Source: a virus
Length of the DNA: 64,000 nt
Direction: 5' to 3' (one strand)
IMG/VR virus record: IMGVR_UViG_3300032397_000003
Span: 1 to 64,000 of that record
A model generated the notes under the pieces. The model was not told the DNA's origin and made no database searches. It was given only the letters and a program-made list of their open reading frames with translations. Below, one piece after another: positions 1,320 to 32,436 of this stretch (position 1 is its first letter; each line of letters opens with the position of its first letter). The translations under genes and the position numbers were made by a program.

Positions 1320-1538
1320 CTAAAACTTTTTTGTAAAACTGAATTCTGCTGATTTAATACTACCTACACCTAATTCTACTTGTGGATTTATATCTACTTT
1401 AATACCTGCTTTAAATGTTACATCATCAGGTAATTCAGTTTCATACTTAACTTCTGCATCTAAGGATTTAATTTCTAATTCTTTATCTTGTATTAGTTTT
1501 TTAATATTTATTTTTGGTTTTAATTTAAATTTAAACAT
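1320..1538 (-). CDS. small beta-rich hypothetical protein (72 aa)
   Basis: The protein is rich in alternating charged and hydrophobic residues (FKFKLKPKINIKKL, then several short strands ending in AEFSFTKKF). This suggests a small beta sheet, perhaps a fragment of a beta-barrel-like fold. It has no tag. Its start overlaps the end of the upstream tagged gene by 8 bases, which implies translational coupling. I do not recognise a family. Confidence 0.65.
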   Translation of the reverse strand: MFKFKLKPKINIKKLIQDKELEIKSLDAEVKYETELPDDVTFKAGIKVDINPQVELGVGSIKSAEFSFTKKF

Positions 1539-2031
1539 TATTTTTATCCATGTTTTTAATAGAAACCAAATTATTTTTTGTTACTTCAAAGAATACTGCA
1601 CCATCTCTTGTAATACACCCATCATATTTATCAAATATTTTTGTTTCATTGTAGAGATAATTTATAAACTCTATATTATCCCATGCTTGTGCAGATTCAA
1701 CTATATCTTTTGGATTAAGGGAATTGTAAACATTGTTAAACTCTTCTTCTTTAGATGGAAATTCTTCATAGTCATCAGGAATAAAAGGATCCCATTCATT
1801 GAGAAATATAATAGCATAGTTAACTAATTCTATAACTCTCCTATCATTCTTTTTTCGGAGGTCTAAAGTTCTGTTAGTTGCTTTAAATATTCGTTGAATA
1901 TTTCCATAATGATTTGAACGTTCAGGATTGTTGGAACAAAATATAACAGGTTCATCCCCTTGTCTTGTATCCCTTCTATAATTGTAAAAAAATTCTTCTT
2001 TTTCTCTAAAAAAAGATTTATACCTTTCCAT
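1531..2031 (-). CDS. tagged protein, possibly ADP-ribosyltransferase-like fold (166 aa)
   Basis: It starts MERYKSFFREKEEFF. The body shows VIFCSNNPERSNHYGN near residue 29 and ends with KYDGCITRDGAVFFEV and VSIKN. This order (a serine-containing strand, A/S-x-x-Y-G, then a YDG strand and a final I-x-x-I) loosely resembles the small ADP-ribosyltransferase-like folds in phage head proteins, and the neighbour at 18723-19202 fits that pattern better. No catalytic R-S-E triad is certain here, so I treat the fold as a guess. The stop is directly followed by the gene at 1320-1538. Confidence 0.7.
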   Translation of the reverse strand: MERYKSFFREKEEFFYNYRRDTRQGDEPVIFCSNNPERSNHYGNIQRIFKATNRTLDLRKKNDRRVIELVNYAIIFLNEWDPFIPDDYEEFPSKEEEFNNVYNSLNPKDIVESAQAWDNIEFINYLYNETKIFDKYDGCITRDGAVFFEVTKNNLVSIKNMDKNNV

Positions 2032-2214
2032 TTATTTGGAACCCATTTGTAATTTTTTGATTTTAAAATTTATATTTGCTATCTCTTCAAGCATTAAACC
2101 ATAAGATATATTCATACCTTTTTCTTTATATTCAAAAGCTTGAGATTCTTTTTTTCTAAGCTTTCTATTTAGATCCTCTAGTGTTTCTGCTTTTTTTGGT
2201 TGATACTCTTCCAT
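2032..2214 (-). CDS. tagged small coiled-coil protein (60 aa)
   Basis: It begins MEEYQPKKAETLEDLNRKL, a looser tag variant (E-E-Y-Q-P). The rest is a predicted helix rich in K, E and L (NRKLRKKESQAFEYKEKG, then ANINFKIKKLQ). It abuts the next gene exactly (2031/2032). No function is recognised. Confidence 0.65.
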   Translation of the reverse strand: MEEYQPKKAETLEDLNRKLRKKESQAFEYKEKGMNISYGLMLEEIANINFKIKKLQMGSK

Positions 2215-2216
2215 AA

Positions 2217-2606
2217 TTAAATACCTTTTTCCGCTAACAGTTTCTTTACCAAAGTTAATAAATCTGATAATAAGAATGGTTTCTGTAAAACAGCATTAGC
2301 CCCCAATGTATAAGCAATGTTAAGGTACTCCGCACTACTCACTCTCCCACCACCTGAAATAGCAATTATTACTATATCTGGACAAAATTTTCTAACAGCT
2401 ATAATAACCTCTATTCCATCAGTATCTGGCATCAATATATCAGTAATTACGCAATCAGCATTACAGTTAGTGAAATAATCTTCTATATCTCTAAGAGATT
2501 CTGGAATTATAATATCAAATCCATTATAGGTTAAATATTCTTTAATGGCAATTTTTATTATTTCATCGTCTTCTAATAAAATTATTTTAGGATTATTTTT
2601 TAGCAT
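2217..2606 (-). CDS. stand-alone response-regulator receiver domain
   Basis: This 129-residue protein is a complete CheY-like receiver domain with no output domain. The acidic pair E-D-D-E lies near residues 12-15, the phospho-acceptor Asp is in ITDILMPD (about residue 55), the conserved Ser is in AISGGG (about residue 84), and the Lys is in LQKPF (about residue 107). The full catalytic set is therefore present and phosphorylation is plausible. No histidine kinase is visible in the window. It sits between tagged head-type genes and membrane proteins. It may be a captured host signalling domain or a decoy, but its role is unknown. Confidence 0.85.
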   Translation of the reverse strand: MLKNNPKIILLEDDEIIKIAIKEYLTYNGFDIIIPESLRDIEDYFTNCNADCVITDILMPDTDGIEVIIAVRKFCPDIVIIAISGGGRVSSAEYLNIAYTLGANAVLQKPFLLSDLLTLVKKLLAEKGI

Positions 2607-2607
2607 A

Positions 2608-3390
2608 TTAGTCCACGTTGTGAAATTTATAAGTTTGTCTTGTGATCTTGCTTATTTTTTCTTCAAAAGTTTCTTTAATTTTTTGCATTTCTGTCTCCCT
2701 TTCAATAGTAATTTTTCTAGCTTCTTCAAAGCATTCAACTAAAGCGTGTCTATTTATAGTTCTGGTTGCTCTGATTTTATCAAAATTCTTAATAAATGCC
2801 TTTTGCGGATACCTACTCCTAAATAGCTCATCGATCTCCCCTTCTATTAAGGATATATTTGTTTTAATTAGATCAGAATAACTTAATGAAGAATACTCAG
2901 AAAAGTGATTATTTTTACACATCCCTCTAAAGGTAGTAGCCACCCTTAATTCTATTAAGTCTAGGAAGTTTTCAAAATTAGAGAAATAAGTACAATAATT
3001 ATCTTCATCTATCCCAACTTCTCTCAAAAGGGATATCATAATATTTATTAAAACTAATTTTATTGATTTTGATTTTTTATTGAAGAATACCATTTGTTCT
3101 TTTAGAATATCAGAACGCATATTATGTATAAGATATAATAATTGAGCTTGTTCTAAAAGAACATGAAATAAAGCGGCATCTACTGGAGAAATGTTAGGAT
3201 CATATTGTCCATTTTGATTATGTGAACCAATATTTACAGTAACTCCTTGCCCCTTGAACTCATCTGACTTTTTTCCAAAGAAATCCTTCAATAGTTTAAA
3301 AATGTTTTGTGAGATTTTAAAAAAAGCATAAGTCACAGCAGTACCATATGCTAAAAATTCTCCTATTTGTTTAGCATCATAATTACTCAT
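2608..3390 (-). CDS. hypothetical protein with N-terminal membrane segment (260 aa)
   Basis: Residues 8-27 (IGEFLAYGTAVTYAFFKISQ) form a likely membrane helix or amphipathic anchor. A glycine- and asparagine-rich linker follows (about residues 47-66), and the long helical remainder ends in a coiled-coil (ERETEMQKIKETFEEKI). It overlaps the next gene by 8 bases and forms a unit with two other membrane proteins (3383-3799, 3803-4285). A lysis or membrane role is possible but not shown. No lysozyme or amidase motif is present. Confidence 0.7.
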   Translation of the reverse strand: MSNYDAKQIGEFLAYGTAVTYAFFKISQNIFKLLKDFFGKKSDEFKGQGVTVNIGSHNQNGQYDPNISPVDAALFHVLLEQAQLLYLIHNMRSDILKEQMVFFNKKSKSIKLVLINIMISLLREVGIDEDNYCTYFSNFENFLDLIELRVATTFRGMCKNNHFSEYSSLSYSDLIKTNISLIEGEIDELFRSRYPQKAFIKNFDKIRATRTINRHALVECFEEARKITIERETEMQKIKETFEEKISKITRQTYKFHNVD

Positions 3391-3799
3391 CTGTACCTTT
3401 CAATTCTTTTATAATTTCTCCCACCCTTCTTCTATAAAGCAGGATAGATTCTTTTTCTATTCTAATTTCTCTCCATATTGCAAAGTTTAAACTAAGGAAA
3501 TATAAACTCTTACCATGTTCAGCAATTAAATATAAGAATAGACTTGGATCGGCTATCCCTCCAAGTGTTTCATCACCACTACTTTTTACCCATGTATATA
3601 ATGCAGCAAAAAATAATGATTCAACTATAAGAATACCATCTACAAGTATTCTCGTTTTTAAGGTTATTAACTCTACCCCTGTTTTATATTTAAAATAATG
3701 ATATATACTTTTTAAATAAATAGCAAATAAGACATTTACAGTTATAGTAAATAAATTTAAATAATCAAACAATCTATCATATTGAAGTACTGTTAACAT
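3383..3799 (-). CDS. multi-pass membrane protein, holin-like candidate (138 aa)
   Basis: Three hydrophobic segments are visible, at about residues 13-33 (LFTITVNVLFAIYLKSIYHYF), 50-70 (ILVDGILIVESLFFAALYTWV) and 84-104 (PSLFLYLIAEHGKSLYFLSLN). A charged cytoplasmic-type tail (RRRVGEIIKELK) follows. Size and topology fit a class I holin or another small phage membrane protein. No endolysin gene is visible nearby to support a lysis cassette, so the assignment stays open. Confidence 0.65.
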   Translation of the reverse strand: MLTVLQYDRLFDYLNLFTITVNVLFAIYLKSIYHYFKYKTGVELITLKTRILVDGILIVESLFFAALYTWVKSSGDETLGGIADPSLFLYLIAEHGKSLYFLSLNFAIWREIRIEKESILLYRRRVGEIIKELKGTDE

Positions 3800-3802
3800 A
3801 GG

Positions 3803-4285
3803 TTATGCTGGCTCATCTGAACAAGTATCTTCCTTTTTAACAGTATTTTTTCTATTGTTATTATAAAGTAACACAAGAGATGATATAAAGGTAAGCACTG
3901 TTGCTAAATCTGCTGTACTAATCATATCAGAAGTATATGTTCCTGCTTTAATCGCTTTCCATGCTGCATATATTTTTACAAATAACATAGCAGAAGCAAG
4001 TAAACAGAACACAGTAACAAAGAAATATATTGGCTGAAACTTACCACCACCATAGAAAAAACTAAAAGGAAATAATGTTTGCCATTTCTTTTCTGCTATT
4101 CTTGTACTTTTTAAATCTTGAGTTAGCTCTTTCTTAATCTTATTAACCTTTTTCACAGGCTCACTCACTTTATCTATCACTTTATCTATCACTTTATCAG
4201 CTTGTCCTACAATATCTTTTAAATTAACCTTAGATACTATTGATATCAATTTAGTTTTCGCAAATCCCAATATTAAATTCCACAT
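3803..4285 (-). CDS. membrane protein with two C-terminal transmembrane segments (160 aa)
   Basis: An N-terminal amphipathic region contains a short tandem repeat (V-I-D-K repeated, about residues 32-42, from a 12-base repeat near 4170-4200). It is followed by two hydrophobic stretches at about residues 93-113 (FFVTVFCLLASAMLFVKIYAA) and 127-145, and a polar tail. A promoter motif lies 24 bases upstream of the start, so it heads the 2217-4285 unit. Holin or spanin-like roles are possible. I see no decisive motif. Confidence 0.65.
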   Translation of the reverse strand: MWNLILGFAKTKLISIVSKVNLKDIVGQADKVIDKVIDKVSEPVKKVNKIKKELTQDLKSTRIAEKKWQTLFPFSFFYGGGKFQPIYFFVTVFCLLASAMLFVKIYAAWKAIKAGTYTSDMISTADLATVLTFISSLVLLYNNNRKNTVKKEDTCSDEPA

Positions 4286-17954: not shown

Positions 17955-18736
17955 TTCTTTAAAAATTTATTGACCATTCCAGTCATGTTGTTTATATAGA
18001 TGTTTAATCCACTGGAAATAAGTATCCCAAGATGCTTGCAAATGAAGTTATCGTCTTTGTGATATTGATTCCATCTCTTAGGCTCCCTTAATTCTGGGTA
18101 GATTGCTGCATCAAAAGTGGTGAGTATATAATTGGATCCCTGAAGCTGAAATGCTGGGCAATTACAAGATAACTTAATATCGGCAACATTTAGTATCTCT
18201 TTTATTTCTTTTACAGTCATTTCTTTTTCTATATAACCAGGTTTTGTCTCAGCTAATTTAAAGAAATCAAGAATTCTTATTTCTTCTGTGTATGATCTAA
18301 CTTTTTTTGTTGTATCTACATCAGGAAAAGCTATTGCTATAGACATAGATTTATATGTAGGAACACTTAGAAATGTAAACTGAATAAAATCTTGCTTTCT
18401 ATTCACTTTCATTGATTTTATCTTTACTGATCTTGCTCCAGATCCTTTTATTCTCTGTCTATCTAATCTAAACTTATCTGTTAATGTAGAAGTTCCTGCA
18501 TGTTTCTTCAAATCCGATAATCGAAGGTTTTCTTCTAATTCAGATTCTTGTATAAGCCGAATCTTTGCCATTGGGATTTCACGTCCTGTATCTGTAATTA
18601 TTACAACATCACCTTTTTTGTTAATATAATCACTTGCATATACAGCTTTTTTATTTTTGAATTTACCGAAGAGGAAGGTATCCCCTGGTTTAAGAGGTAT
18701 TACTATATCTTCAAAGAATGGTTTATAGCGATTCAT
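17951..18736 (-). CDS. tagged protein with SWIM-type zinc finger (261 aa)
   Basis: I start at the ATG giving MNRYKPFFEDIVIPL, a clear tag copy, rather than at an in-frame codon 30 bases upstream. Next comes an SH3/KOW-like segment (GDTFLFGKFKNKKAVY). The C-terminal half contains a SWIM-like zinc site, C-N-C-P-A-F (about residue 188) and I-C-K-H (about residue 234), with a REPKRWNQYH segment between. SWIM fingers bind DNA or protein. A related plus-strand gene (30364-31014) has lost most of these ligands. Head packaging is inferred from the tag. Confidence 0.75.
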   Translation of the reverse strand: MNRYKPFFEDIVIPLKPGDTFLFGKFKNKKAVYASDYINKKGDVVIITDTGREIPMAKIRLIQESELEENLRLSDLKKHAGTSTLTDKFRLDRQRIKGSGARSVKIKSMKVNRKQDFIQFTFLSVPTYKSMSIAIAFPDVDTTKKVRSYTEEIRILDFFKLAETKPGYIEKEMTVKEIKEILNVADIKLSCNCPAFQLQGSNYILTTFDAAIYPELREPKRWNQYHKDDNFICKHLGILISSGLNIYINNMTGMVNKFLKK

Positions 18737-19202
18737 AATAATTTTTAACCTGCTCTTCAGTTTCAAAATATTCTATATTTTCAGGTTTATAATTAACCAT
18801 TTCCCTTCCTTTAATTACAAATCCATCGTAGCCTTGCTTTATAAGCTCTTTATCCATTGAAGTATGTTTTTCAAAAAATCCTGGATCATATTCTCTATCA
18901 TGACCTTTCTTTTTACAGAAGTCTATAATAAGTTTTTGTCTAAATATTTCTGCTGAATTTATTGATTGTACAATAACAGGTTTTTTAGGTGTGGCATTTA
19001 TCACAAAGTAAAGTTTACCATATTGTTTAGCCATCGACTTATTGGATAATGGTACTGTATATAATCCTTTGCCCCATGAACCATACACTTCATTATCTGA
19101 GCCAACTGATTTCATTCCTCTATAAGTAACATTAGCTTTTTTCCATTTAAGATAATCTCTTTGATCGAAATCTTCATTAAAGTATGGTCTATATCTTTCC
19201 AT
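18723..19202 (-). CDS. tagged ADP-ribosyltransferase-like protein (159 aa)
   Basis: The protein starts MERYRPYFNEDFD. Behind the tag are T-Y-R-G-M-K-S (about residues 25-31), G-K-G-L-Y-T (44-49) with a following A-K-Q-Y-G (about 58-62), and a C-terminal I-K-Q-G-Y-D-G-F-V-I then M-V-N-Y-K-P-E-N-I. This order of an R-G strand, a G-x-G-L-Y-x-(S/T) strand and a final strand with an acidic residue is typical of small ADP-ribosyltransferase folds in phage and bacterial toxins. I cannot verify the catalytic Glu; the E in GREMVNY is the best candidate. T4 Alt, a tagged and injected ADP-ribosyltransferase, is the functional analogy. Confidence 0.7.
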   Translation of the reverse strand: MERYRPYFNEDFDQRDYLKWKKANVTYRGMKSVGSDNEVYGSWGKGLYTVPLSNKSMAKQYGKLYFVINATPKKPVIVQSINSAEIFRQKLIIDFCKKKGHDREYDPGFFEKHTSMDKELIKQGYDGFVIKGREMVNYKPENIEYFETEEQVKNYYESL

Positions 19203-20294: not shown

Positions 20295-20720
20295 TCATTC
20301 TAGTATGTCAATTGTTATGTCAAGAGTGTCGTTATATAGGTAAGTAAAATCTATATCAATAATAGCGTCTTTAAAGGAAATCTCATCCGGTAAGTCTACC
20401 CAATAATCAAATGATCCTTCTACTTTTCCAAATATCGTATTTATTAGTTCATTTAAATTTTTAAATATTTTATCTCCTTTTAGTTGATAAGCAGTAGCCA
20501 TAAGTCCCTCTATTGAAATATCAATTTTGCCTTGATAGGAACTATTACCTTTTCTTTTAAGTTGTTTACCAAAAACCTTTTCTATATTCCATAAATCTTT
20601 TCCAAACAGATTGGCATATTGTTCTTTCATATCTGTAAGATTTATCTCATACACCTTACCGGCTATTTTGCTAATTATCACTTTATCATCCATTTCTTTA
20701 AATCGTTTATATCTTTTCAT
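20295..20720 (-). CDS. tagged hypothetical protein (141 aa)
   Basis: It starts MKRYKRFKEMDDKVIIS. The body has mixed alpha/beta character with W and Y residues in F-D-Y-W-V-D-L-P-D-E-I. It ends in strands of D and I (IDFTYLYNDTLDITIDILE). The stop of 20720-21178 overlaps its start by one base. No enzymatic motif is seen. Confidence 0.7.
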   Translation of the reverse strand: MKRYKRFKEMDDKVIISKIAGKVYEINLTDMKEQYANLFGKDLWNIEKVFGKQLKRKGNSSYQGKIDISIEGLMATAYQLKGDKIFKNLNELINTIFGKVEGSFDYWVDLPDEISFKDAIIDIDFTYLYNDTLDITIDILE

Positions 20721-21184: not shown

Positions 21185-22264
21185 CTAAAATAATGTCTTG
21201 TTATATTTCAATATGCTCTTTGAAAGATATTCCTCCACAGTGCAGTAATTATTAGTAAGTAAAATTTCAGAAACAAAATTCTCATCCGTATCTTCTACAT
21301 TTATATTTATAACTGTTAGCTTAACCCCACTATCCCTTAATTTTAATACCATTTTCAAGCCCGCCAAATCGTTATCCGGGATGACATACACCTCTTTAAA
21401 TTTTTTAAGATATTCAAGTTGTGCATCTGAAATCTGACTCCCGAAAGTGCAGCTACAATTTTTAGATACTTTATCCCACAGCTTCGGTATAGAGCCTATT
21501 CCTTCGGTAAGGTATAATGGTTCATCATAATTTAAATGATCTATATTAAAGATTGTGTTCTTGACAAAACTACCGGATTCATACTTCACTTTCTTATCAA
21601 GTAAATAAAATAACACCCTATCTACAATTATTTCATTACCTTTATATAACTTATAATCAGATATATGAATATTATTATTTTTACAACATTCTTTAAAATC
21701 TTTACTTAATTGTTCATATGTAATATCATGTGAATCATAATAAGTTTGTAGATATTCAAATTGCATTAGTTTTCTAAACTCCACACATTTGATGTTTTTA
21801 TTTGTATCCTGTATACAATAAGCAAAATAATCTGAATAGGGATCGGTAAATGATCTAACTATCTTAAATTCTTTACAGAACTCTTTTGTAAATCCTCTTT
21901 GTTTTAAATAATAAAAATCTTCTGGATTATCAATCTCTTTATGTATAAATCTATAAGTCATAGAACTATCTATGCTTGATTTTTTTACTTCTGGTTTATT
22001 TGGAGTAGTTACTTGTGGAGGAGTATAAGTATAATTACTTCCTCTTTCTTTTAAGAGAGTTGATATATGTTTTGTTACTCCACACTTATAACAAGATATA
22101 ACACCACTATTTACATTTACGGATGCATTACCATAGTCCTTGTCCTGATGGAAAACACATATAATAGATAACCACCCCTTTGAATTAGGGTGTCCTTGAT
22201 ATTTAATGTTCAGCGTATTAAGTGCTTCCATAACATTAACATTTTTATTGAGAGTGTTTAACAT
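21185..22264 (-). CDS. DnaG-type DNA primase with CHC2 zinc and TOPRIM domains
   Basis: The N-terminal zinc-binding motif is C-V-F-H (about residues 30-33) with C-Y-K-C (about 54-57). A TOPRIM core follows, with L-T-E-G-I-G-S (about residue 253) and the D-x-D motif in I-P-D-N-D-L-A-G (about residue 290). These are the hallmarks of DnaG-type primase, which lays RNA primers on the lagging strand. At 359 residues it is short, comparable to other phage primases. It lies in the late-strand block, away from the replication genes on the plus strand, together with a small zinc protein (22258-22467). Confidence 0.85.
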   Translation of the reverse strand: MLNTLNKNVNVMEALNTLNIKYQGHPNSKGWLSIICVFHQDKDYGNASVNVNSGVISCYKCGVTKHISTLLKERGSNYTYTPPQVTTPNKPEVKKSSIDSSMTYRFIHKEIDNPEDFYYLKQRGFTKEFCKEFKIVRSFTDPYSDYFAYCIQDTNKNIKCVEFRKLMQFEYLQTYYDSHDITYEQLSKDFKECCKNNNIHISDYKLYKGNEIIVDRVLFYLLDKKVKYESGSFVKNTIFNIDHLNYDEPLYLTEGIGSIPKLWDKVSKNCSCTFGSQISDAQLEYLKKFKEVYVIPDNDLAGLKMVLKLRDSGVKLTVININVEDTDENFVSEILLTNNYCTVEEYLSKSILKYNKTLF

Positions 22265-26669: not shown

Positions 26670-27863
26670 TTATTTATTAGTATTAAAAAATTCTTCATGT
26701 TTATTATAATGTTTTTGTAAAAAATACTCTTCTTCCAATCTTTCATAATTTTCAATATACCACTCAATTTTATCTTTGTTTTCTTCGACAAATTTTAAAT
26801 AAATATTTCTTTGCTTTGAATATTTAGTCTTATTAGCAGGAATTTGTAGTATCTTTAGAATTCTATAAAAAGAGGCATAACCTAAAATATGATTATGATT
26901 TTTATTATATAATTCAAATAATTCAGTTATTTCAATTATATCAAAATAATATTGTAGTATGAAAGATATATCTAATTCAACATATCCTGCATGGGATTTA
27001 CCTACATTCACTTTATTTTCTATTCTCTTCTTCCCACCTTTTTCTCCTGCTCTTTTCATTATAGATGGATCATCATTTTTAGTTTTCATTTCTTTTTCTT
27101 TTTGCTTTACTATAATATCTGGATTATCTTTAAAAGCTTGTTTGATATTATTTATTTTTTCTTGTTTTTGATCTGGAGTTTTATTTTCCCAATTTTCAGA
27201 TAATTTTTTATTTGCATTAAGTTTTATGTCTGGATTTTGCTCTAAGGTTATTTTTAAATTTTTAACTTGATTCTCTACTATTTCAGGATTATCCTTTTTT
27301 GTTTTACTAGCTTTTTTTCCAGCATTTTTCATTATAGAGGGATCATTTCTTTTAGTTTCCATTTCTTTTACTTTCTTTTTCTTCTCGTAGTCTGGAATGT
27401 TATTTATAGTTTTTTTATAATTTTGTACCCGTTTCTCCTCATTTTCTTTAGATAACCCCCTACCACCATCTCCTCCATTTCTCATATTGGTTAAAATACC
27501 TAATTTTTTATCAGCTCTACCAATCATTTTTATAAAAAATCTTTCCAATAAATAAGAAGTTTCTTCTTCTAAATTTTCACAAATTTTATAAATTACAACC
27601 TCTTTTCCTTCACGATGAATCTTATTTATTGTATTAACTTTATGTCTATTGTATTTTGGTTTTTCTTCTTGAATCGATTCTGCTTCATATTTTTTAATTC
27701 TATTAGCTTCATTTAAATGATCGTTCAGTCTTAAATCTTTTCCTTTACCAATATAAAATGGGGCACAGGGAAAGTCGATACCAATCCCATTTTCTTGATA
27801 ACTATAAATTCCTGGTTTTAATGGATTACAATAAACGTATACATAAAATCTTAAATCATTCAT
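26670..27863 (-). CDS. GIY-YIG homing-type endonuclease with repeated DNA-binding modules (397 aa)
   Basis: I start at MNDLRFYVYVYCNP because an AGGT site precedes it; an in-frame ATG 21 bases upstream has none. The YVYVY strand and the F-Y-I-G-K-G motif (about residues 37-42), plus a later R-N-G-G-D-G-G-R-G, mark the GIY-YIG nuclease domain. The rest is basic, with two similar modules (E-M-x-T-K-x-x-D-P-S-I-M-K-x-A-G) like NUMOD DNA-binding repeats. It is a free-standing homing endonuclease between the portal and a phosphoesterase. Its last codons form the portal promoter. A C-terminal relic of a relative lies at 60021-60119. Confidence 0.85.
   Translation of the reverse strand: MNDLRFYVYVYCNPLKPGIYSYQENGIGIDFPCAPFYIGKGKDLRLNDHLNEANRIKKYEAESIQEEKPKYNRHKVNTINKIHREGKEVVIYKICENLEEETSYLLERFFIKMIGRADKKLGILTNMRNGGDGGRGLSKENEEKRVQNYKKTINNIPDYEKKKKVKEMETKRNDPSIMKNAGKKASKTKKDNPEIVENQVKNLKITLEQNPDIKLNANKKLSENWENKTPDQKQEKINNIKQAFKDNPDIIVKQKEKEMKTKNDDPSIMKRAGEKGGKKRIENKVNVGKSHAGYVELDISFILQYYFDIIEITELFELYNKNHNHILGYASFYRILKILQIPANKTKYSKQRNIYLKFVEENKDKIEWYIENYERLEEEYFLQKHYNKHEEFFNTNK
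26674..26682 (-). promoter_or_regulatory. TACTAATAA-type promoter motif overlapping the end of a GIY-YIG gene
   Basis: Minus-strand AATACTAATAAATAAAA, 28 bases before the portal start. The motif overlaps the last codons (Asn-Thr-Asn-Lys-stop) of the GIY-YIG gene. Confidence 0.6.
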
Positions 27864-27901
27864 ACTATTACCTATTCTTATCATTTAATTTTAATAGAAA
27901 A

Positions 27902-32154: not shown

Positions 32155-32436
32155 TTATATCCTATTTATTAAGGCTAGGTGTAAACTATTTTTAAAATCT
32201 TTTTTTACTATATCATTAGCCGATCCTTGACCGAAATTATCAATAACATCCAAAATATTATACTGCTTCAATGGGCCTAATTTAATAGTTCTAACTTTTT
32301 TAGCCCACTTAGCATTATCCTTATCTGAGTTTATTTTCATAAACTCTTCAAATATATCATTTATTATTTTAGCATTAACATCTGATTTAGGATCCACTAC
32401 TGTCATTACTTCTTTATATCTTTGATATCTTTTCAT
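32155..32436 (-). CDS. tagged small protein (93 aa)
   Basis: The start is MKRYQRYKEVMTVVDPK. The short body is helical and basic. Its start overlaps the stop of 32436-33482 by one base. No function is recognised apart from the tag. Confidence 0.7.
   Translation of the reverse strand: MKRYQRYKEVMTVVDPKSDVNAKIINDIFEEFMKINSDKDNAKWAKKVRTIKLGPLKQYNILDVIDNFGQGSANDIVKKDFKNSLHLALINRI

Follow-up and report, generated by a model that had tools for sequence, protein, structure and literature searches.

Bacteria usually encode a one-domain receiver beside a sensor kinase, and both transcription factors and kinase-binding proteins are known from phages. The locus studied here raises the question of what a large tailed phage might do with a gene for a receiver domain that stands by itself. 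The gene lies in the window, by which we mean the whole stretch of 64,000 nucleotides that was analysed (bases 1-64000 of a 155,573-base IMG/VR record). The earlier note had recognized a response-regulator receiver at this position and supposed that it may titrate phosphate from host histidine kinases or respond to them, an interpretation that is partly supported by the work described below.

An Intact Stand-Alone Receiver Domain

The open reading frame could be placed exactly at 2217-2606 on the minus strand; it starts with ATG and encodes a protein of 129 amino acids, hereafter referred to as REC. The receiver and its key positions are as follows.

2217-2606, minus strand: single-domain response regulator (receiver only), 129 aa, identified by Pfam, PDB matches, the structural model and Foldseek
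2568-2573, minus strand: codons of the acidic pair E12-D13; D13 is invariant in 33 of 33 single-domain rows of the alignment
2439-2441, minus strand: codon of the phospho-acceptor D56; Asp in 33 of 33 single-domain rows
2346-2360, minus strand: ISGGG signature (residues 83-87), including the switch serine S84; shared signature in the alignment
2280-2282, minus strand: codon of the conserved K109; Lys in 33 of 33 single-domain rows

REC matches the Pfam profile PF00072 (Response_reg) with an E-value of 2.9e-16 and 60.1 bits, against a cut-off of 30.2, and the alignment spans positions 1-110 of the 111 positions of the profile. PF00072 is the sole Pfam domain above its cut-off in the protein; nothing is fused to it and an output domain is absent, just as had been claimed. 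In addition, 117 distinct PDB sequences were matched at E<=0.001. The full catalytic set that the earlier note had listed can be read from the sequence (E12, D13, D56, S84, K109), and a lost acidic pocket, which had been named there as the observation that would speak against the assignment, was looked for and not found: E12 and D13 are kept and the pocket is intact. An AlphaFold2 model computed from a five-sequence alignment (pLDDT 88.5; pTM 0.85) has the (beta-alpha)5 topology, and a Foldseek search with this model returned 575 PDB chains at E<=0.001, including the receivers of Spo0F (5e-9), NtrC1 (3e-9), BfmR and PmrA. The predicted structure can thus be assigned with confidence to the CheY-like fold. 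A comparison with PADLOC gave just a weak, partial match (E 0.0024). Taken together, these data confirm that 2217-2606 on the minus strand encodes an intact, stand-alone PF00072 receiver in a phage.

The switch of receiver domains usually relies on the coupling of a Thr/Ser residue with a Tyr at an aromatic position. Position 106 of REC is a valine and hence not aromatic, and Thr or Val is found here in 26 of the 33 rows of its clade; the classic switch can therefore not be assumed for REC, and Thr/Ser-Tyr coupling may be absent from this protein, judging from its residues.

The Phage and the Search for a Kinase

The carrier of REC, a large tailed phage, stems from an uncultured source. Its record contains T4-like tail genes, with tblastn matches of the sheath to phages of Escherichia, Aeromonas and others, along with a UvsX-like recombinase, a helicase, an anaerobic ribonucleotide reductase and a DNA polymerase I-like gene; a candidate for the major capsid protein had no tblastn match among phages. 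The gene resembling an anaerobic ribonucleotide reductase (record positions 64331-66349; L002:331-2349) suggests an anaerobic host. Strong Shine-Dalgarno sites precede 83 of the 124 ATG-start open reading frames of at least 100 aa in the record, as compared with 14.7 in shuffled sequences.

The statement that the window encodes no kinase holds for the whole 155,573-base record, in which neither a HATPase_c domain (at E<=0.001) nor a HisKA domain (up to E 1) was detected. Several other features of this phage should be mentioned. Between about 118150 and 133172 of the record (L004, L005) there is a large block of glycosyltransferase, radical-SAM/SPASM and epimerase-like genes, four open reading frames of which were covered by Pfam, and which is partly shared with the related phage contigs G008 and G009. 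The window also encodes a GIY-YIG (LEM-3-like) domain protein (26670-27884), the homologue of which in G008 is 73% identical. About two dozen proteins of the phage have an N-terminal tag, M[KEN][KR]Y.[PR][FY], in common, which presumably resembles the capsid-targeting sequence of T4 internal proteins. Examples are listed here.

Window, tagged open reading frames: 611-1051, 1531-2031, 18723-19202, 20295-20720, 32155-32436
Rest of the record, tagged open reading frames: 67712-68431, 136804-138054, 154501-155363

An Accessory Three-Gene Insertion

The genes surrounding REC fall into an insertion and its conserved borders.

1320-1538, minus strand: 72-aa conserved gene, one border of the insertion; its homologue in G004 is 72% identical
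1531-2031, minus strand: 166-aa tagged protein (MERYKSF...), same insertion as REC, no Pfam match
2032-2214, minus strand: 60-aa tagged protein (MEEYQP...), same insertion as REC, no Pfam match
2608-3390, minus strand: 260-aa conserved gene directly upstream of REC, the other border; 44% identical to L042:8817-9584
3383-3799, minus strand: 138-aa protein, probably membrane-bound, in the conserved cassette, judged by synteny and its membrane-protein look
3803-4285, minus strand: 160-aa protein of the conserved cassette, probably membrane-bound, judged by the same two features

Scans with the tail sheath yielded 16 related viral loci, each in a record of its own (12, and then 4 more), with the 77-kb record G004 being the best covered syntenic relative. 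G004 possesses the cassette of 160-, 138- and 260-aa proteins together with the 72-aa gene in the same order (56, 36, 43 and 72% identity, respectively), and its 72-aa gene directly follows the 260-aa gene; no counterparts of the REC, 60-aa and 166-aa genes (1531-2606) were found between these flanking homologues. Since the flanks adjoin each other in G004, REC is an accessory gene within a three-gene insertion and lies outside the conserved cassette; the idea that it is a stable part of the cassette was rejected because G004 has this cassette but no REC. Contamination of the record by host DNA was likewise rejected, as REC is embedded among tightly packed genes whose syntenic flanks occur in another virus record. 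The GC content of REC (29.2%) equals the window mean and is below that measured at the loci of its bacterial relatives (35-60%), which argues against REC being fresh DNA from such a genome.

The earlier description of this neighbourhood needs some correction. The next two genes downstream of REC are indeed tagged, but REC itself has no N-terminal tag; the products of 3383-3799 and 3803-4285 look like membrane proteins, but that of 2608-3390 does so only weakly. That REC sits in a late strand could not be established, as the same run of minus-strand genes includes a primase-like gene (21185-22264).

REC is apparently translationally coupled to the 260-aa gene immediately upstream. This 260-aa protein and that encoded by L042:8817-9584 are conserved helical proteins with an invariant His in the stretch H[ND][LM][RK]SDILKEQ, and its H[ND][LM][RK]SD part would loosely resemble a kinase H-box. 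The stretch was set aside as a kinase H-box, as a HisKA search of the record stayed empty up to E 1. The model of the 260-aa protein is of low confidence and helical, and Foldseek found no PDB match for it at E<=0.001; an IMG/VR single-protein scan with its sequence returned 12 stretches, none of them a relative.

Bacterial Relatives and Their Hybrid Kinases

REC and its relatives share a signature consisting of ISGGG and a downstream YL..A..LGA...L.KP. Pseudomonadota were covered via plasmids only, where tblastn with REC matched 17 records, mainly from Azospirillum and all below 60% identity; Spirochaetota were left out. A scan of the genome collection with REC produced just five poor loci, which then served as entry points. 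In the class to which genome G016 belongs, taken to be Chlorobiia-like from the title of the entry contig ('uncultured Chlorobiaceae bacterium'), 69 of 98 genomes match REC at E<=1e-14, the best with 82 bits and 42-43% identity. The phylum of G016 has matches in 63 of 394 genomes at E<=1e-16 (60 of which were already counted in the class), that of G014 in 7 of 191 at E<=1e-14 and that of G015 in none of 299 at E<=1e-16, figures for which part of each genome's candidates was scored in the larger searches.

A large kinase open reading frame with a G-box motif adjoins the receiver in 11 of the 12 stretches that were read from the class of G016 (L084 is the exception). Seven kinase neighbours (four within this class, three outside it) were scanned with Pfam, and HisKA, HATPase_c and a C-terminal Response_reg domain were present in all seven; these neighbours are PAS/GAF hybrid histidine kinases. 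Because the closest bacterial relatives found adjoin such enzymes, the suspected link of REC to host histidine kinases is strengthened.

The bacterial ISGGG-clade regulators (from the class of G016, G487, G395 and others) are, like REC, receiver-only proteins with the same catalytic residues and signature; they are 119-142 aa in length and up to 43% identical to the phage protein. Whereas these bacterial members adjoin a hybrid kinase, REC is found in an accessory insertion without one.

A tree of receivers (62 rows, two of which represent the same second phage receiver, REC2, described below) places REC in a single-domain clade of 33 rows (96/93) that comprises 30 single-domain proteins, two labelled as C-terminal, and REC itself. 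The C-terminal receivers of the kinases form a separate group (14 rows; 99/96) that stands apart from REC. By path, the rows nearest to REC are mostly single-domain proteins; no small starred set includes it, it sits on a long end branch (1.37), and strong support for its precise position is lacking.

Receivers in Other Phages

REC was found in one phage record only. A search of 50,697 phage records gave no match at E<=1e-5; at E<=10 there were 66 records (best E 4e-4), mostly unannotated and metagenomic, and these weak matches were not counted as phage receivers. IMG/VR scans with the single protein (14 stretches) and with the loose alignment A1 (12 stretches) yielded no relative, and a pattern-based scan with alignment A4 gave two candidates only. 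One of them (L108:2906-6988) is an ISGGG receiver flanked by two hybrid kinases; although its contig was classed as viral, this is probably bacterial host DNA adjacent to a provirus. The other (L109:3549-8369) is an ISGGG receiver 1.2 kb downstream of a tape measure gene of the gene-transfer-agent type, with its KPF motif altered to KAD; it may be host DNA. These results support the presumed rarity of phage receivers only in part. Longer phage proteins that include receiver stretches are already represented in PHROGs (profile lengths from 227 to 1030), so that finding a receiver in a phage is no novelty as such, and a further stand-alone receiver occurs on two contigs from related phages.

These two contigs, G008 and G009, whose sheath is 81% identical to that of the phage studied here, were the only positives when the 16 related virus records were searched with PF00072 (2 of the 12 and none of the 4 added later), records that are mostly fragments, so that absence from them means little.

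L027:1486-1866, plus strand: REC2, 126-aa stand-alone receiver, in G009; at the matching place in G008

REC2 lies between a tail gene and a strand switch, at another site than REC. G008 and G009 are 99.5% identical over 3.2 kb, and REC2 is therefore counted as one acquisition. BLAST detected no meaningful similarity between REC2 and REC, and tblastn with REC2 found no match in plasmids and phages; in the alignment, the catalytic positions of REC2 are still occupied by E, D, D, S and K. REC2 might have a spirochaetal look. In the tree, it groups with the N-terminal receivers of hybrid kinases (100/97), and its relatives, with identities of up to 50%, form the N-terminal receivers of PAS kinases from other genomes of the phylum to which G016 belongs. 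The positions of REC and REC2 in separate lineages imply at least two acquisitions in this group of phages. Both types of receiver are present in a single kinase operon of genome G487, in which an open reading frame with a REC2-type receiver and PAS is followed by one encoding HisKA-HATPase-REC and then by a single-domain receiver of the REC type; the first two lie in overlapping frames and are possibly one kinase split by an error.

Comparison with Known Systems

Cellular receivers provide several points of reference. MrrA, with LovK/LovR, exemplifies alphaproteobacterial receivers that are described as a hub or phosphate sink exchanging phosphoryl groups with several kinases (PMC5964349); being cellular proteins, MrrA and LovR resemble the phage receiver, from what the source describes, by mechanism only. 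The same applies to Osp of Rhodobacter sphaeroides, a single-domain receiver as well, reported as a cellular feedback inhibitor of the hybrid kinase CckA (PMC9430884). In Myxococcus, EpsW~P is reported to activate a phosphoglycosyl transferase directly (PMC12802240).

Among phage proteins, PIT4 of Pseudomonas phage LSL4 acts on the host two-component kinases FleS/PilS; in the accessible part of its description, on which this comparison is based, it is called an unknown protein with the ability to bind kinase domains and is not presented as a receiver (PMC10714779). The divergent cREC domain of jumbo phages is, in the accessible text of the report on it, never tied to histidine kinases and is linked to NAD+/ADP-ribose enzymes (PMC7824862). 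REC differs from this domain, being a conventional PF00072 receiver whose clade is linked to kinases, and a cREC-type identity was rejected on the grounds of its conventional Pfam match and the location of its relatives beside histidine kinases; no NAD+ enzyme domain was found among nine other proteins scanned with Pfam. The truncated Spo0A of gut phages, described as keeping the DNA-binding part and missing the receiver (PMC10294663), is the mirror image of the receiver-only REC, both being pieces of phosphorelay regulators. Searches for a phage stand-alone receiver or a 'phage-encoded response regulator' found no paper, most of the subscription literature lying outside the search.

What the Phage Receiver Might Do

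We lean, by a modest degree, towards the view that REC docks on a host hybrid histidine kinase and drains or misdirects the corresponding relay as a decoy or sink. The gene would have been taken up from bacteria and then retained in the phage as an accessory gene for host takeover. During infection, REC would dock on host kinases of the PAS/GAF-HisKA-HATPase-REC type, the normal partners of a receiver of this kind, and would accept phosphoryl groups, or fill the docking surface, where the host receiver would otherwise do so, with the net result that the relay is drained or misdirected. We infer the expression of REC, its docking on a kinase, its phosphorylation, and a net effect as sink or decoy rather than as activator. 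We prefer this reading because no other role would be as economical for a bare receiver that a phage produces in quantity, and because receiver proteins are already known as sinks, hubs and kinase inhibitors. Against it stand the low identity to the nearest bacterial relative found (only 42-43%), the long end branch of REC and its weakly supported place in the tree, its occurrence in one phage record, and the valine at position 106; REC could also have an effector partner in the phage or in the host.

The main rival holds that REC, once phosphorylated by host kinases, actively switches on a host output that favours the phage, such as polysaccharide synthesis, adhesion or a stress response. The complete set of catalytic and switch residues would suit such a mimic, the direct activation of an enzyme by EpsW~P, as described in the source, offers a precedent (PMC12802240), and the glycosyltransferase/epimerase block of the phage at about 118-133 kb makes a link to surface glycans conceivable. 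Yet no output partner was identified, and outside the signature the surface residues have diverged (at best, identity reaches 42-43%). We regard an activating role, and with it any of these outputs, as rather unlikely. Still less probable, in our view, is a phosphorylation-independent inhibitor that would block the autophosphorylation of a host hybrid kinase by binding to its DHp/transmitter region. The reported inhibition of CckA by the single-domain receiver Osp (PMC9430884) and the binding of histidine kinase domains described for the phage protein PIT4 (PMC10714779), which works by other means, are in line with it, but such an inhibitor would not require the conserved D56, S84 and K109.

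It is highly improbable that REC serves the membrane cassette at 2608-4285, where it might act as a cytoplasmic switch for a membrane or lysis complex, to name one example. Its place immediately downstream of the apparently coupled 260-aa gene, and the H[ND][LM][RK]SD stretch loosely recalling an H-box, could be read in this way; however, the whole cassette is kept in G004 without any REC, HisKA has no match, and the low-confidence helical model of the 260-aa protein finds no PDB match at E<=0.001. We give just as little credence to a neutral passenger, that is, a recently acquired host gene without function for the phage. Its restriction to one record of the phage group and its absence from the syntenic G004 would fit, but the catalytic residues are all kept, the GC content of 29.2% is that of the window and not that of the relatives' loci (35-60%), and a second receiver was separately acquired by related phages.

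A broader extension of the decoy or sink reading is more speculative, and we would not expect it to hold in full: T4-like phages might repeatedly have captured different receivers of one host hybrid-kinase relay as interchangeable decoys that short-circuit host sensing. It is similarly doubtful, if conceivable, that one branch took the N-terminal receiver of the kinase and the other the downstream stand-alone receiver, with hosts that are probably anaerobic.

Implications for Phage Biology

REC is a known kind of protein in an unusual carrier and context, and we consider the separate captures to be the interesting part of the finding. That related phages separately captured a different receiver suggests selection; if the repeated capture is true, it would amount to a phage strategy of counter-signalling with bare receiver domains. 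A bare, catalytically intact receiver that has no kinase from the phage at its side gives direct access to the phosphorelays of the host, and its presence raises the questions of which host relay is worth hijacking and whether the receiver acts as a sink or a switch. If confirmed, the kinase-SDRR operons of such anaerobes would be pathways relevant to phage infection.
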